In this document: piece by piece, positions 12,024-27,425 of the stretch
Layout: every line of letters begins with the position of its first letter
How positions within the stretch are numbered: position 1 is the stretch's first letter
DNA from: a virus
Direction: 5' to 3' (one strand)
Length of the DNA: 60,069 bases
IMG/VR virus record: IMGVR_UViG_3300042884_001023
Coordinates: 1 to 60,069 of that record
Program-made: the position numbers and the translations under genes
The notes under the pieces: model-generated
What the model was told of the DNA's origin: nothing
Seen by the model: only the letters and a program-made list of their open reading frames with translations
Database searches by the model: none

Positions 12024-14063
12024 ATGTTAGAATTTATGGACGAAGGAAATGACAAATCAAAAAAGAAATCTGATAGCGGAACACCTGTATTAGATAATTT
12101 TAGTAAAGATTTAAATAAGTTGGCACAAGACGGGAAATTAGATCCTGTAATTGGAAGACAAAAAGAAATTTTTAGAATCGCTCAGATTTTATCTCGAAGA
12201 AAGAAAAATAACCCAATTATTATTGGTGAGCCAGGTGCAGGAAAGACAGCAATTGTGGAGGGTCTTGCAATGATGATTCACAACGGTGAATGTCCAAAAA
12301 ATTTAATGGATAAAAGAATTGTATCTTTAGATTTGAATTCATTAGTTGCAGGAACAAAATATAGAGGTCAATTCGAGGAACGAATGAAAGTTATTATCGA
12401 AGAGTTACAAGCAACCCCAAACATCATTTTATTTATTGATGAAATTCACACTATGGTTGGTGCAGGAAATAGTTCAGGTTCTTTAGATGCGTCAAACATT
12501 TTAAAACCAGCATTATCAAGAGGAGACATTCAATGTGTTGGAGCGACAACTTTGGATGAATATAGAAAACACTTTGAAAAAGATGGTGCGTTAGATCGAA
12601 GATTTCAAAAGGTTATTGTTGATCCATCTTCAAAAGAAGAAACATTTGAAATTTTAAAGATGAGTAAATCAAAATATGAAGATCACCACAAAGTGACTTA
12701 TGATGATAAAACTCTTTGGACATTTGTTGAGTTGGCTGATCGATATATTACAGATCGTGAGTTTCCTGATAAAGCGTTTGATATTTTGGATGAGGTTGGG
12801 TCAAGAATGCAAATTGACATCAAATTACCTGAAGAAATCGAAAAATTAAAGGACGAAGCAAACGCCATCAAACAAGAAAAAATGAATGTTATTAAACAAC
12901 AAAAATATGAGTTGGCCGCCGAGTTAAGAGATAGAGAACGTAATGTTTTATCAAAGTTGGATTTAGAAAAAAAGAAATTCGAAGAAAGTTTATTGAATAG
13001 TAAAAGAAGTATTCCTGAAGATTTAATTTATGAGGTTGTCTCCAATATGACCAAGATTCCAATTTCCAATATTAATTTGGACGAAAGAAATTCGCTAATC
13101 AACTTAAATGAAAGTTTAAATTCAAAGGTTATTGGTCAAGAAGAAGCAGTGAATAAAATTTCAAAAGCAATTAGAAGAAATAGAATTGGAATCAAAGATC
13201 CAAATAAACCAATCGGTTCATTTATCTTCTTGGGATCTACGGGTGTTGGTAAAACGTATTTGGCAAAACAATTGGCAAAAGAAATCTTTGGTAGTGAAGA
13301 TAATATGATTCGTGTAGATATGAGTGAATATCAAGAGAAACACACCATTTCTCGTTTGATTGGATCTCCTCCAGGATATGTTGGTCACGATGAAGGAGGT
13401 CAGTTAACCGAACAAGTTAAAAACAAACCTTACTCTGTTGTATTGTTCGATGAGATTGAGAAAGCTCACAAAGACATTTTCTCAACACTCCTCCAATTGT
13501 TAGATGATGGTCACATCACAGATTCTTTGGGTCGTAAAATCAACTTCAAAAATTGTTTAATTATTATGACCTCCAACATTGGAGTTAAAAAATTACAAGA
13601 CTTTGGAACTGGTATGGGATTCCAACCTCAAAAAAGTGATGTTGTTAAAGAAGAAGAAAAACAAGATGTATTGAAAAAAGAAATGAAAAAGTTTTTCTCA
13701 CCTGAGTTTTTGAATAGAATTGATGATGTTGTAATTTTTAACTCCTTAGAAAAACCACACATTGACGTTATTACCAAGTTAGAAATTGACAAATTATTAC
13801 AAAGAGTTTCAGAGAAAAAATACTATTTTTCTTATGACCAAGATTTAGTTGATTATTTGTCCAAAGTTGGATTTGACGAAACTTTTGGGGCAAGACCTAT
13901 CAAAAGAGCAATTCAAAATAAAATTGAAGATTTAATTTCCGAAAAAATCTTAATGATGGAAATTGAAGAAAACAAAGAATATGTTTTGAAGGTGGAAAAT
14001 GATGAGGTTATAATTTCTAATAAAGAAGAAAAAGTTAAAAGAACAAGAAAAAAGAAAGAATAA
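12024..14063 (+). CDS. clpC: ClpC-type AAA+ unfoldase lacking the N-domain
   Basis: 679 residues with two AAA+ modules. D1 has Walker A GEPGAGKT (residues 68-75) and Walker B LFIDEIHTMVG. A short M-domain with a UVR-like helix (KQQKYELAAELRDRE) marks it as ClpC rather than ClpA or ClpB. D2 has GSTGVGKTYLAK and VVLFDEIEKAH, and closes with the GARPIKRAIQ sensor region. After MTSNIG the loop TGMGFQPQ (near residue 530) aligns with the ClpP-docking VGF loop of ClpC, so it probably still feeds a ClpP. The double Clp-N domain of cellular ClpC is absent: the protein starts at D1. Substrate choice may therefore depend on another adaptor, such as the divergent UVR protein. Confidence 0.92.
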   Translation: MLEFMDEGNDKSKKKSDSGTPVLDNFSKDLNKLAQDGKLDPVIGRQKEIFRIAQILSRRKKNNPIIIGEPGAGKTAIVEGLAMMIHNGECPKNLMDKRIVSLDLNSLVAGTKYRGQFEERMKVIIEELQATPNIILFIDEIHTMVGAGNSSGSLDASNILKPALSRGDIQCVGATTLDEYRKHFEKDGALDRRFQKVIVDPSSKEETFEILKMSKSKYEDHHKVTYDDKTLWTFVELADRYITDREFPDKAFDILDEVGSRMQIDIKLPEEIEKLKDEANAIKQEKMNVIKQQKYELAAELRDRERNVLSKLDLEKKKFEESLLNSKRSIPEDLIYEVVSNMTKIPISNINLDERNSLINLNESLNSKVIGQEEAVNKISKAIRRNRIGIKDPNKPIGSFIFLGSTGVGKTYLAKQLAKEIFGSEDNMIRVDMSEYQEKHTISRLIGSPPGYVGHDEGGQLTEQVKNKPYSVVLFDEIEKAHKDIFSTLLQLLDDGHITDSLGRKINFKNCLIIMTSNIGVKKLQDFGTGMGFQPQKSDVVKEEEKQDVLKKEMKKFFSPEFLNRIDDVVIFNSLEKPHIDVITKLEIDKLLQRVSEKKYYFSYDQDLVDYLSKVGFDETFGARPIKRAIQNKIEDLISEKILMMEIEENKEYVLKVENDEVIISNKEEKVKRTRKKKE

Positions 14064-16214: not shown

Positions 16215-17335
16215 CCTGGATCGATTCTAAACTCAGTTGGGTTGAATAAACCTGGCTGAGTTACCATTGCAATTACCTCATCAGCAGTTGCCAAACCATA
16301 TTTACGATCACCAAAATAACTACCTGAACCGATTAAATATTTTACCTTTAATGTTTCAGGATCAACTGACTCTACTTTTATAAATAAATTTTTTTGACCT
16401 GGAATCTCTCTTCTATAAAATAAATCCAAAGATGAGAGTTTATCCATAATTTTCACATATTCAGGAGAAAATTCTTCTTGTGCTATTTCTATATACTGAT
16501 CAATTAAATTAACCAATTTTTCACAAGACTCAGATTTAAACATTTCATTGTCCATTACATAATATTCCATTTCGTAATATTCAGGAAGACCGTGTCTAAA
16601 TTTTTTATCGATTTTTTGAATTAATACATCAAGGGCTTTCCCATCAAATTCACCATCTTCAACAAATAACTGAACCAGATTACCCCAACTTATAAAGTAT
16701 AATCCAAAACACCACTTACCCCATTTTTCAACTCCAAACTCACTAAGTGTATTACAATATTCTTTTTCAATCACTTCTTTAACCCCTGCATCAGTTGCAT
16801 TTGATTTAGCAGAACATATAATCTCATCCATATCATCACCAATACCTTTAAAATATTTGTCTAATATTGAAGTTATTTGACCTTCGTCATCAATTCTACT
16901 ACCGTCTTCTTTGATATTATCAACAAGGTTAGGTGCAATTATTTTAAGTAATTCTCTTAATCTGATTTTTGCTTCACTACAAAGATATCCTAAAGTATAT
17001 CCTTCACTCCAATCGTCGTATGCTCGATCTTGACACTCACTATAAAAATCATATTGACCATAATACATACGATCATAATTATTCGCATCCCACTCACCGT
17101 CAGTTCCTTCTTCAAATGTAGGATAATGAAAAAACTTTAAAAACTGTTCTAAATCATCAAAATCAAATAATAGACCATCAGGTTTAATCTGAACATGATT
17201 TAGTTTCAAGTCTTCGTAATTATCACTTTCAAATTCAACATCATCAGAAGATAACTTTCTTTTATTTAAAAGAAGGATTTTTTGAAAATCCGTCATTTCT
17301 GGAATATCATTTTCTATAAGAAGTCTTTTTTTCAT
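16199..17335 (-). CDS. Unknown 378-residue acidic protein
   Basis: The N-terminus MKKRLLIENDIPEMTDFQKI resembles the window's short tags (Leu-Ile-Glu). The remainder is rich in Asp, Glu, Tyr and Trp with no recognised fold; notable segments are YGQYDFYSECQDRAYDDW, YTLGYLCSEAKIRLRELL and WGKWCFGLYFISWGNLVQLF. ATATATTTATAAATA precedes the start, putting it with the late class. It could be packaged in the virion, but nothing identifies an activity. Confidence 0.6.
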   Translation of the reverse strand: MKKRLLIENDIPEMTDFQKILLLNKRKLSSDDVEFESDNYEDLKLNHVQIKPDGLLFDFDDLEQFLKFFHYPTFEEGTDGEWDANNYDRMYYGQYDFYSECQDRAYDDWSEGYTLGYLCSEAKIRLRELLKIIAPNLVDNIKEDGSRIDDEGQITSILDKYFKGIGDDMDEIICSAKSNATDAGVKEVIEKEYCNTLSEFGVEKWGKWCFGLYFISWGNLVQLFVEDGEFDGKALDVLIQKIDKKFRHGLPEYYEMEYYVMDNEMFKSESCEKLVNLIDQYIEIAQEEFSPEYVKIMDKLSSLDLFYRREIPGQKNLFIKVESVDPETLKVKYLIGSGSYFGDRKYGLATADEVIAMVTQPGLFNPTEFRIDPGQLRR

Positions 17336-17350
17336 ATATTTATAAATATA

Positions 17351-17381
17351 TTGTCAAAGTGAAATCTTTGTATTATATTTG
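17351..17381 (+). promoter_or_regulatory. tmRNA promoter
   Basis: TATATTTG at 17374-17381 with a TTGTC element about 20 bases upstream as a weaker -33 box. It lies 22 bases before the tmRNA 5' end. Confidence 0.6.
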
Positions 17382-17403
17382 TATTATAGTTCTTTGAAAA
17401 TAT

Positions 17404-17801
17404 GGGGGTGGTTTTGGATTTGACAGGCGTTGGCTGAGGAATAAGGGCACGTAGGGACTGAGTTAATCTCTTTAAAAACTGACTTAGAAAACAACTGGCA
17501 ATGTGCTAAACAAAATGGAAACTCTTGGATTAGTGAGAGGTTCTGAAGTTACTGTAGCTTAATTAGATACGGAAACGGGGGGTCGGTCAGACAGATAACC
17601 TAGCAACAGAAGTCGTTGATGAGTTGGTTTTCACTCTAAAAGAAAACAAAACGGGTATGGTTCCCCGTAAGAACTGTCACCGTCTCTGAGCGGTGTGAGA
17701 ACTCAGATATTTCGGAAGGTATGAAAAACCTTGACCTAAACGTGTAGTCCTTATCTGACAGGATGTTATGGACCGGAGTTCGACTCTCCGCACCTCCACC
17801 A
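17404..17801 (+). ncRNA. ssrA: Transfer-messenger RNA (tmRNA)
   Basis: 398 nucleotides. The 5' GGGGGTG (17404-17410) pairs with CACCTCC (17791-17797) to give a seven-base acceptor with a G3:U70 wobble, the alanine identity signal. The 5' side continues TTTTGGATTTGACAGG, typical of tmRNA. The 3' side has a T-arm (CGGAG-TTCGACT-CTCCG) and an encoded CCA. The best tag frame begins at GGC 17498, reads GNVLNK..., ends GSEVTVA, and stops at TAA 17561-17563, giving 21 codons. Bacteroidota tags usually start G-E-N-N and end A-L-A-A, so this tag is atypical. tmRNA rescues stalled ribosomes and marks the product for proteolysis. Confidence 0.93.
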
Positions 17802-17804
17802 ACT

Positions 17805-17832
17805 AAACCTCATCTTCGGATGGGGTTTTTTT
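17805..17832 (+). terminator. tmRNA terminator
   Basis: AACCTCATC and GATGGGGTT arms close on a TTCG tetraloop and are followed by seven T, four bases after the tmRNA CCA. Confidence 0.9.
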
Positions 17833-17852
17833 ATGCGGTAAAATTTAGAGCA

Positions 17853-17882
17853 CAAAAAAAGGGATCGATTCACATCGTCCCT
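17853..17882 (-). terminator. Terminator of the large minus-strand RNA
   Basis: On the minus strand GGGACGAT, a GTGA loop and ATCGATCCC form a hairpin with one bulge, followed by TTTTTTT. It faces the tmRNA terminator 20 bases away. Confidence 0.85.
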
Positions 17883-18846
17883 AATATTTTTACCGGTTTT
17901 AGCTCCATTCTATAAAAGAAATAAAAGGCTGAGATTACACCTATTTGTGAGAACCTTTAGAGTCATTATTGTTTCTACTCCTATCCACTTCCTTTTGAGA
18001 AGTATTTCTCAGTGACGGTCTTTTAGGTATACCACTCCTTGAGGTCTGAACTACTCTCATTCTACTTTAACTCTTTCCGAGGATGCCTCCCCAGTTCGTC
18101 CTTGCGGGATTAAAGGTTTTTCGAAAAATTACACATCGACTTGGGATCTTTGTGTGCAATGAACTGCTCATTACTATGTAGTCACCTTTCATTCAAACCT
18201 GACGGACACTTTTCCTTAATGTAATAATTATTTTTGGAAAATAACAACTTCCATAAGTTATGTGTCGTGGATTGTGAAAGTAGTGGTCCGTCACGGGCTT
18301 CGTTATCTTTTGAACAACGAAATACTCAACTACTCTCTGAAATGTCCCCATTTCCATACTTTAAGACTACTTCGAGATTAACCCCTTGGTAGGAGTTCAT
18401 CAAGGATAATGTCGGCACCACCCGTTTGTTATCATACCTTTCGGTTTTAAGTATCCTCTAATATTGGAACTCGCAATGAAAGTGCTGGAACACTTTGTTT
18501 TGCAAAATTCCTACGAGTTATTCCTATTGGTGTTCCCACCTCAACTTGACGACCCACATCGCCAAATCATCTAACCACTTTCTCTACAGCGTTGCCCTCG
18601 ATACTAAAGGTTAAACGGTATCCCGCTTGTATACTCGAGCTCCCGAAGAAGCCGCAAACTATCTAACACAAATAATTCACTTTATCCCACTTTCATGGTT
18701 TATTTTAATGGACCATATACTGCCCAATATCTTTATCATTCCAAGATGAAACATTCGTTTCAATTACACGTCAATTAATCTGACAAAACTTTTCCTGATT
18801 GGATAATCTATTTTTTCAAAGAACGATTCAGGACGTTTCCTGATTT
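17853..18846 (-). ncRNA. Large structured non-coding RNA (GOLLD/ROOL-like candidate)
   Basis: About 990 nucleotides with no coding frame of note, bounded by a host-type promoter and a terminator. It is visibly more GC-rich than the genes. Local hairpins can be read on the minus strand: TCAGGA/TCCTGA at the 5' end, TGAAAC/GTTTCA, ATGGT/ACCAT, AAAGTG/CACTTT, CCTTG/CAAGG, TCGTT/AACGA and TGAGAA/TTCTCA. A longer stem joins TGACGGAC (plus coordinates 18286-18293) to GTCCGTCA (18200-18207) and encloses TTTTCC/GGAAAA. Size, structure and position beside tmRNA and tRNAs match the ornate phage RNAs GOLLD and ROOL, but I cannot assign a family by eye. Confidence 0.8.
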
Positions 18847-18852
18847 GTTTTA

Positions 18853-18884
18853 CAAAGTTAAGAAGAATTTTTTAATTAGTCAAA
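18853..18884 (-). promoter_or_regulatory. Promoter of the large RNA
   Basis: On the minus strand TTTG (plus 18881-18884), 20 bases, TAACTTTG (plus 18853-18860). The start should lie near 18846, just before the first hairpin. Confidence 0.75.
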
Positions 18885-18947
18885 TTTTTCTTTTACTTTT
18901 TTTTTTAAGGTTTCCCTCAATTGTTTTACAAAAATAAAAACTTAATT

Positions 18948-19124
18948 TTAATTTGTCAAGTTTTTCACTTCAACTTTTTCAACATAAACATCATTTGTTC
19001 CATAAAAATCAGCTCTGATTTGTGCAAATGATAGATTAGATGTCCATAGTTGTTTTCCGTTTGCAATGTAAGAATACATCTCAATTACTTTCGGTTCATT
19101 TTCTTGGGTTAATTCTTCACTCAT
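18948..19124 (-). CDS. Small unknown protein
   Basis: 58 residues: MSEELTQENEPKVIEMYSYI, a central KQLWTSNLSFAQIRADFYG, and a basic end. Codon use and amino-acid composition look like a real gene, and it fills the gap between the large RNA promoter and the endolysin gene. No domain recognised. Confidence 0.6.
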   Translation of the reverse strand: MSEELTQENEPKVIEMYSYIANGKQLWTSNLSFAQIRADFYGTNDVYVEKVEVKNLTN

Positions 19125-19181
19125 ATTATTTAATTAATTACAAGTGAAATGATAAGTTAAATATAAATATTAGTCAAATAT

Positions 19182-19940
19182 TTAAAGTATTTTTTTCATA
19201 ATATCTTTTATTCTATCTACGTCTTCAGATAAACCAATCATATCAGCACTACTACTAACATAATCCTCCAACCCTTTCACATCTCCTTTACCAAGAGCAA
19301 CAATTGCATCCAAAGAAGAAAAAAATGGATCAAATTTCTTTTTTTTATCTTTACCATCAGTAGACGTATCTTTTTTATCTGTAGATTTTTCTTCTTTCTC
19401 TGTAGATGTTTCTTTTTTGTCGGAAGAAGTATCTACGGTCATTTTTCCTTTACAAAAACTATCACAATTTTTATCTCTATTTGATCCTGGTCCACAAAAT
19501 GTAAAATGCCAAGGTTCTGATTTTGCTTCACCCCAACACCAACCGTATTTAGTTCCATTTTCTCTAATCCAATTTTGAACATCTGACGGTGATATGTCGA
19601 TTGCTCTACCCCATCCATGATTAGATGTTCCTGGATATGCTGCAGGTGTCGATGAAGTTCCTTTTTTAACTCTTTTTCCTGTTGATTCATATTTACCCCA
19701 ATCAAAAATATTACATTGGATATTAAGAGGTCTGTATGCACCTCCCATTGAGATCTTACTTTTTAAATTACTTGGCATGTCATCAGTCATTTTAATGAAT
19801 GCATCGGCAGCTTCTTTAGCCAACACATTATTACCAATACCTATTGATTTTAAATTTGAACTACCTAAACAACCACTAACATCACTACCATATCCAGAAC
19901 AAGGGTTTGATGAACTACAAGCAGATTTTGAAACTTTCAT
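19182..19940 (-). CDS. M15-family peptidoglycan peptidase, likely endolysin
   Basis: 252 residues from the ATG at 19940. A start at 20021 is possible, but it overlaps the upstream gene, whereas 19940 follows GTATTTATTAAT. M15/VanY motifs are GGAYRP (R70), TSNHGWGRAIDI (H108, D115) and EPWHFTF (H145), the zinc ligands and catalytic environment of D-Ala-D-Ala or L-Ala-D-Glu peptidases. Cysteines are frequent (about ten). A linker of Lys/Thr/Ser-Asp repeats follows, then a short C-terminal domain ending DVDRIKDIMKKIL. It lies in a lysis-like block with the holin-like gene at 21.1-21.3 kb. Confidence 0.85.
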   Translation of the reverse strand: MKVSKSACSSSNPCSGYGSDVSGCLGSSNLKSIGIGNNVLAKEAADAFIKMTDDMPSNLKSKISMGGAYRPLNIQCNIFDWGKYESTGKRVKKGTSSTPAAYPGTSNHGWGRAIDISPSDVQNWIRENGTKYGWCWGEAKSEPWHFTFCGPGSNRDKNCDSFCKGKMTVDTSSDKKETSTEKEEKSTDKKDTSTDGKDKKKKFDPFFSSLDAIVALGKGDVKGLEDYVSSSADMIGLSEDVDRIKDIMKKIL

Positions 19941-27390: not shown

Positions 27391-27425
27391 GTTTTTCAAA
27401 GAACAAATCGTTCTTTATAAATATA

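Follow-up and report, generated by a model that had tools for sequence, protein, structure and literature searches.

Organization of the locus

The stretch of DNA analysed here (the window; 60,069 nucleotides) is a 60 kb virus record from IMG/VR. It encodes a large terminase recognised by PHROGs, with hundreds of relatives in IMG/VR; among named phages, the closest sequences (mostly T4-type, including Flavobacterium phage immuto and cyanophages) show only 23-27% identity. Given this distance, the host was deduced from the type of promoter found at the locus; the window derives from an uncultured lake phage with a T4-type terminase, whose host is probably a member of the Bacteroidota. Its minus strand carries a non-coding transcription unit, delineated by an ORF scan, a promoter and a terminator, which converges with a tmRNA gene:

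18853-18884, minus: Bacteroidota-type promoter TTTGACTAATTAAAAAATTCTTCTTAACTTTG (-33 TTTG, -7 TAACTTTG; pattern TTTG-N20-TAACTTTG)
18846-17854, minus: non-coding transcription unit
18828-18843, minus: leader hairpin TCAGGAAACGTCCTGA, an inverted repeat just past the inferred start
18814-18824, minus: boxA-like element GTTCTTTGAAA before GOLLD, outside the folded domains (no consensus pairs there)
18338-18720, minus: GOLLD 5' domain (111 pairs in 20 helices; includes a conserved GAAA hairpin loop)
17926-18337, minus: GOLLD 3' domain (Rfam RF02032, model 1-416, 314.8 bits, E 2.6e-89)
18286-18292, minus: pseudoknot 5' arm GACGGAC
18208-18285, minus: variable A/U-rich loop between the pseudoknot arms, from the alignment
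18201-18207, minus: pseudoknot 3' arm GTCCGTC
about 17854-17882, minus: intrinsic terminator GGGACGATGTGAATCGATCCC-TTTTTTT (stem with one bulge)
17404-17801, plus: tmRNA (RF00023, 108.4 bits)
17389-17399, plus: boxA-like element in the tmRNA leader, exact GTTCTTTGAAA
23881-27390: nine-tRNA array headed by tRNA-Ser, about 5 kb from GOLLD
27394-27404, minus: boxA-like element before this tRNA-Ser, exact GTTCTTTGAAA

The ORF listing of the window has no entry reaching 80 aa from 17335 to 19182, and the longest ATG frame within 17853-18846 is 54 aa. A protein-coding reading is accordingly eliminated, and the original prediction of a gene-free region, through which no conserved frame should run, holds. 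The elevated GC content that it described is likewise real (38.3% in the RNA region versus 31.1% in the window and 23.9% directly upstream), and the region folds with a minimum free energy of -261.4 kcal/mol, versus -234.5 +/- 8.8 in 20 shuffles (z = -3.06). It had further suggested that the RNA might be a member of the GOLLD or ROOL type or a new class of similar size, to be decided by covariance models. The GOLLD model is matched over its whole length, at about twice its gathering cut-off of 150 bits; in contrast, the ROOL model (RF03087), which as a control detected the ROOL locus of L. salivarius, gave no match in the GOLLD region up to E = 1. The guess of membership was therefore right, with the combination of a full GOLLD match and no ROOL match excluding ROOL or a new class. 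Matches to the BTnc231, MPMV packaging and permuted-tmRNA models each fell under their own Rfam cut-off and were discarded. We conclude that the window RNA is very probably a complete GOLLD gene. The computation shows its membership in this family, selection for RNA structure on both of its domains, and the anatomy of its leader.

Conserved structure of the two domains

Rfam RF02032 covers the 3' domain of GOLLD only, without the 5' half. From an alignment of 73 distinct phage 5' halves we obtained a structure with 20 covariation-supported helices, in which 85 of the 111 predicted pairs display compensatory changes, these homologues coming from related phages, so that the counts do not amount to independent events. 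The covariation that had been predicted among homologues is thus present. Overall, 96.4% of the pair cells in this alignment are paired and the covariation score is 0.514, versus 81.1% and 0.213 in a shuffle control (0 of 500 shuffles reach the observed values) and 36-40% and 0.07-0.12 when the partners are slid. As the structure was derived from the same 73 sequences, the comparison with slid partners is biased in its favour, but such bias alone could not produce a difference of this size. The folded domain starts near 18720, and alignment columns 1-192, corresponding to the leader, contain no consensus pairs. All 73 of these 5' halves share an unvarying GAAA hairpin loop, which resembles, by sequence only, L11a, the conserved non-interacting GAAA loop of GOLLD. 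The 5' core of the window RNA can also be aligned with a megaphage GOLLD. A 5'-end pattern, GTTCTTTGAA followed by ATTATCCNTTCAG, recurs in at least 120 viral contigs, with the GOLLD 3' domain 449-514 nt downstream in all 65 of the examined loci that have enough downstream DNA.

Within the 3' part, an eight-base long-range stem had been predicted between TGACGGAC (18293-18286) and GTCCGTCA (18207-18200) of the minus strand. Seven of these pairs are kept across 76 sequences, covarying or invariant and mostly with changes on both sides (the 18290/18203 pair varies between C-G, U-A and G-C), whereas the outermost U-A (18293/18200) is neither kept nor covarying and falls away from the proposed stem. 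Since this stem and the outer helix of the Rfam structure cross each other, the stem constitutes a pseudoknot. The variable A/U-rich loop closed by it appears to match, in its position, the linker that is disordered inside the solved cage (PMC12286853). The L21a loop of GOLLD, which makes the symmetric kissing contact B8, is reported to alternate between self-complementary dinucleotides (PMC12286853). Among the 74 copies having an L21a-like loop, the dinucleotide is GC in 65, AU in three and CG (within UCGA) in six, and none of the 74 has a non-self-complementary core; these changes represent few independent events, but they run in the direction predicted by B8.

Transcription signals

The predicted TTTG-N20 promoter is indeed present and places the transcription start, we infer, near 18846. 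Most relatives keep it, some 490-530 nt ahead of the 3' domain, and a relaxed regular expression finds it in most of 80 loci; a sigma-70 scan gave matches near background level. The inverted repeat of the leader hairpin is kept by variants in many loci and is missing in some. At the other end of the unit, the terminator, also foreseen in the original prediction, consists of a bulged hairpin and seven U and is kept in relatives with variation.

A boxA-like element in the leader

Between the leader hairpin and the folded RNA lies GTTCTTTGAAA, which starts about 29 nt past the -7 box. Only three exact copies exist in the window: one before GOLLD, one before the tmRNA and one where the tRNA array begins. 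When one mismatch is allowed its count in the window is at chance level, and the evidence for the element hence rests on the positions of the copies and on the relatives. In 26 of 26 distinct GOLLD loci, fetched by a 3'-domain pattern or by terminase and not by the motif, GTTCTTTGAA is invariant between promoter and folded RNA; the loci found by the 5'-end pattern (at least 120 contigs), having been selected with the motif, were left out of this evidence. A relaxed form, GTT[CA][TA]TT[GA]A, is found within 60 nt in all 43 distinct tmRNA leaders of related contigs, as against 14 of 1668 ORF upstream regions (0.8%) and about 1.1% of random 60-mers. It is situated at -14 to -53 relative to the tmRNA start, about 14-16 nt before most tmRNAs; among tRNAs it precedes, within 70 nt, 12 of the 88 first ones and 2 of the 119 internal ones.

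Compared with the gammaproteobacterial boxA consensus GYTCTTTAANA (PMC5725501), GTTCTTTGAAA shows one difference, A to G at position 8. Some related tmRNA leaders read GTTCTTTAACA, an exact match to this gammaproteobacterial form (PMC5725501). The boxA of the E. coli rRNA leader is GCTCTTTAACA. In the one Bacteroidota 16S leader read, that of a freshwater Chryseobacterium, GATCATTGAAAT stands downstream of the promoter, and the element there differs (GATCATTGA). The forms GTTCTTTGA or GTTCATTGA, if they do occur in Bacteroidota 16S leaders, would favour a boxA identity. In light of the consensus matches, the 16S leaders and the placement before GOLLD, tmRNA and tRNA heads, we propose that the conserved leader element is a fairly probable boxA, that is, a putative NusB-S10 site.

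With the patterns used, no such element was found near the GOLLDs within tRNA arrays of Acinetobacter, Streptococcus and roseobacter phages (several of them directly behind a tRNA), in the GOLLD of megaphage LR756502, which directly follows a tRNA, or in the ROOL of L. salivarius; it is present in the GOLLD of megaphage LR745206. Its absence from the array GOLLDs indicates that boxA is not a family trait, and a general GOLLD/ROOL feature was rejected on the same loci. This pattern of presence and absence fits a role in transcription where GOLLD forms its own unit. No earlier mention of boxA in GOLLD or ROOL was found in the literature searched, which is no proof of absence; the novelty seemingly lies in the leader, with its likeness to the host rRNA "boxA" and its sharing by the tmRNA and tRNA cluster of the same phage. 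At the start of some phage tRNA arrays (L174, L223, L225, L171) stands GTTCTTTGACATATTGGTAA; this conserved leader is longer and may represent a fuller boxA/boxC-like region.

Gene neighborhood and distribution

The tmRNA neighbour of the original prediction is corroborated by RF00023. ARAGORN misses this gene, and the tmRNAs of the same phage group are easily overlooked in annotation. The location in a viral record, with an adjoining tmRNA and nine tRNAs about 5 kb off, agrees with the occurrence of GOLLDs in phages or prophages near tRNA genes. A tmRNA was found in the fetched DNA of 32 of the 73 distinct GOLLD loci, in all 32 downstream and convergent at 115-3483 nt, and a tRNA-Met follows GOLLD at 10-18 nt in 13 loci and lies just upstream of it in five. 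In the roseobacter phages DSS3_MAL1 and MD18 the tmRNA again adjoins GOLLD, but on the same strand and with a tRNA-Arg inside the linker, so the tmRNA neighbourhood recurs in distant phages. The GOLLDs of these two phages (L255 1370-2307 and L256 1366-2459, respectively) are unannotated in their records.

GOLLD is present in at least 15 of 50 records with related terminases, a lower bound since most of these are fragments. Further Rfam matches occur in tRNA arrays of Acinetobacter, roseobacter (DSS3_MAL1, MD18) and Streptococcus phages. The uncultured megaphages LR745206 (635 kb) and LR756502 (642 kb), whose records have no annotation at all, encode full GOLLD RNAs beside tRNAs (287 and 275 bits). 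A supposed GOLLD in a Campylobacterales genome (L125) was a chance pattern match with no family match.

The env-38 GOLLD forms a homo-oligomeric hollow RNA cage, a 14-mer by cryo-EM (PMC12286853). The window RNA shares with it the 3' domain spanning the whole model, a separately folding 5' domain, the variable A/U-rich linker, a self-complementary L21a-like loop, and a phage genome with tRNAs in the neighbourhood. It differs in its own promoter and boxA-like leader, its own terminator, the convergent tmRNA, a linker without a tRNA, and a 5' part (transcript start to 18338) of about 510 nt versus 420 nt. ROOL is also a large phage- or plasmid-borne RNA, which forms an 8-mer cage, but its sequence and secondary structure are different. 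With the E. coli rrn boxA leader (PMC5725501), the locus has in common the succession of a promoter, a boxA-like sequence and a long untranslated structured RNA; however, the copy in the window, a putative Nus site with the G at position 8, drives a phage RNA.

Functional implications and alternative explanations

We propose that the phage would transcribe an untranslated RNA of about 0.99 kb from its own host-type promoter, and that the boxA-like leader would recruit NusB/S10 (NusE) of the host, in the manner of rRNA operons. RNA polymerase might then resist Rho termination while the RNA folds co-transcriptionally. The finished RNA would go on to form a hollow, symmetric cage resembling the solved GOLLD 14-mer and enclosing the A/U-rich linker. 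We regard cage assembly of the window RNA as quite likely, and the borrowing of host Nus/boxA machinery to complete a long untranslated RNA as reasonably probable. According to work cited in PMC12286853, GOLLD levels increase during lysis, and the RNA pulls ribosomes down with it. A cargo of RNA or of something ribosome-related is a tentative guess. The leader in common with the tmRNA and some tRNA arrays suggests that GOLLD would belong to a stable-RNA set, probably one that acts late in infection on translation or on the management of ribosomes. On balance, we favour the view that a widespread group of uncultured phages makes GOLLD, tmRNA and some tRNA arrays subject to a boxA leader of the host rRNA type. 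In such a phage 'stable-RNA regulon', the antitermination and folding complex formed by host Nus factors would be borrowed to build an RNA nanocage.

The main competing explanation accepts GOLLD but takes the GTTCTTTGAA leader as something other than boxA: a DNA-level element, such as an initial-transcribed-region part of the promoter or the site of a phage regulator, or a processing or stability tag of stable RNAs. The closeness of the element to promoters in all classes, as before most tmRNAs, would suit such a role. However, we regard this explanation as rather unlikely, since the leader matches boxA consensus forms, its distance to the tmRNA start varies, and it stands before GOLLD, tmRNA and some tRNA arrays, not before ORFs. 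The identity of the RNA is much less in doubt. Decay is known from copies of non-coding RNAs in prophages and arrays, but a non-functional remnant is very improbable here, as promoter, terminator, helices and pseudoknot are intact and covariation is maintained. Slighter still is the chance that the RNA is a ROOL, or belongs to an undescribed class of large ornate RNAs, and only resembles GOLLD: the 5' half does lie outside the Rfam model and the length is unlike that of the solved env-38 RNA, but the strength of the full-length match, the lack of a ROOL match and the alignment of the 5' core with a megaphage GOLLD oppose it.

We regard the window GOLLD as a newly identified, complete representative of an established family; its leader and its neighbourhood may be novel features. 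GOLLD RNAs are among the largest structured RNAs of bacteria and phages, and full-length versions with a well-supported 5' domain are common in a group of lake phages, for which the present work supplies the deep 5'-domain alignment missing from Rfam. The ties to tmRNA and to a boxA-like leader would link GOLLD to host transcription antitermination and to translation.

The tmRNA tags of this phage group

Bacterial tmRNA tags usually end in -AA, and the ending bears on recognition by Clp protease. The tmRNA frame of the window (17503-17562) reads ...NKMETLGLVRGSEVTVA-stop; of the tags read in relatives, about 50 close with -VTVA, -VSVA or -VAVA and a single one with -AAVAA. At 12024-14063 on the plus strand, at a distance of 3.3 kb from the tmRNA, lies the gene for a ClpA/ClpB-like double AAA+ protein (PHROG 'ATP-dependent protease', 800 bits). 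Possibly, the phage supplies its own Clp ATPase alongside an unusual tmRNA tag.
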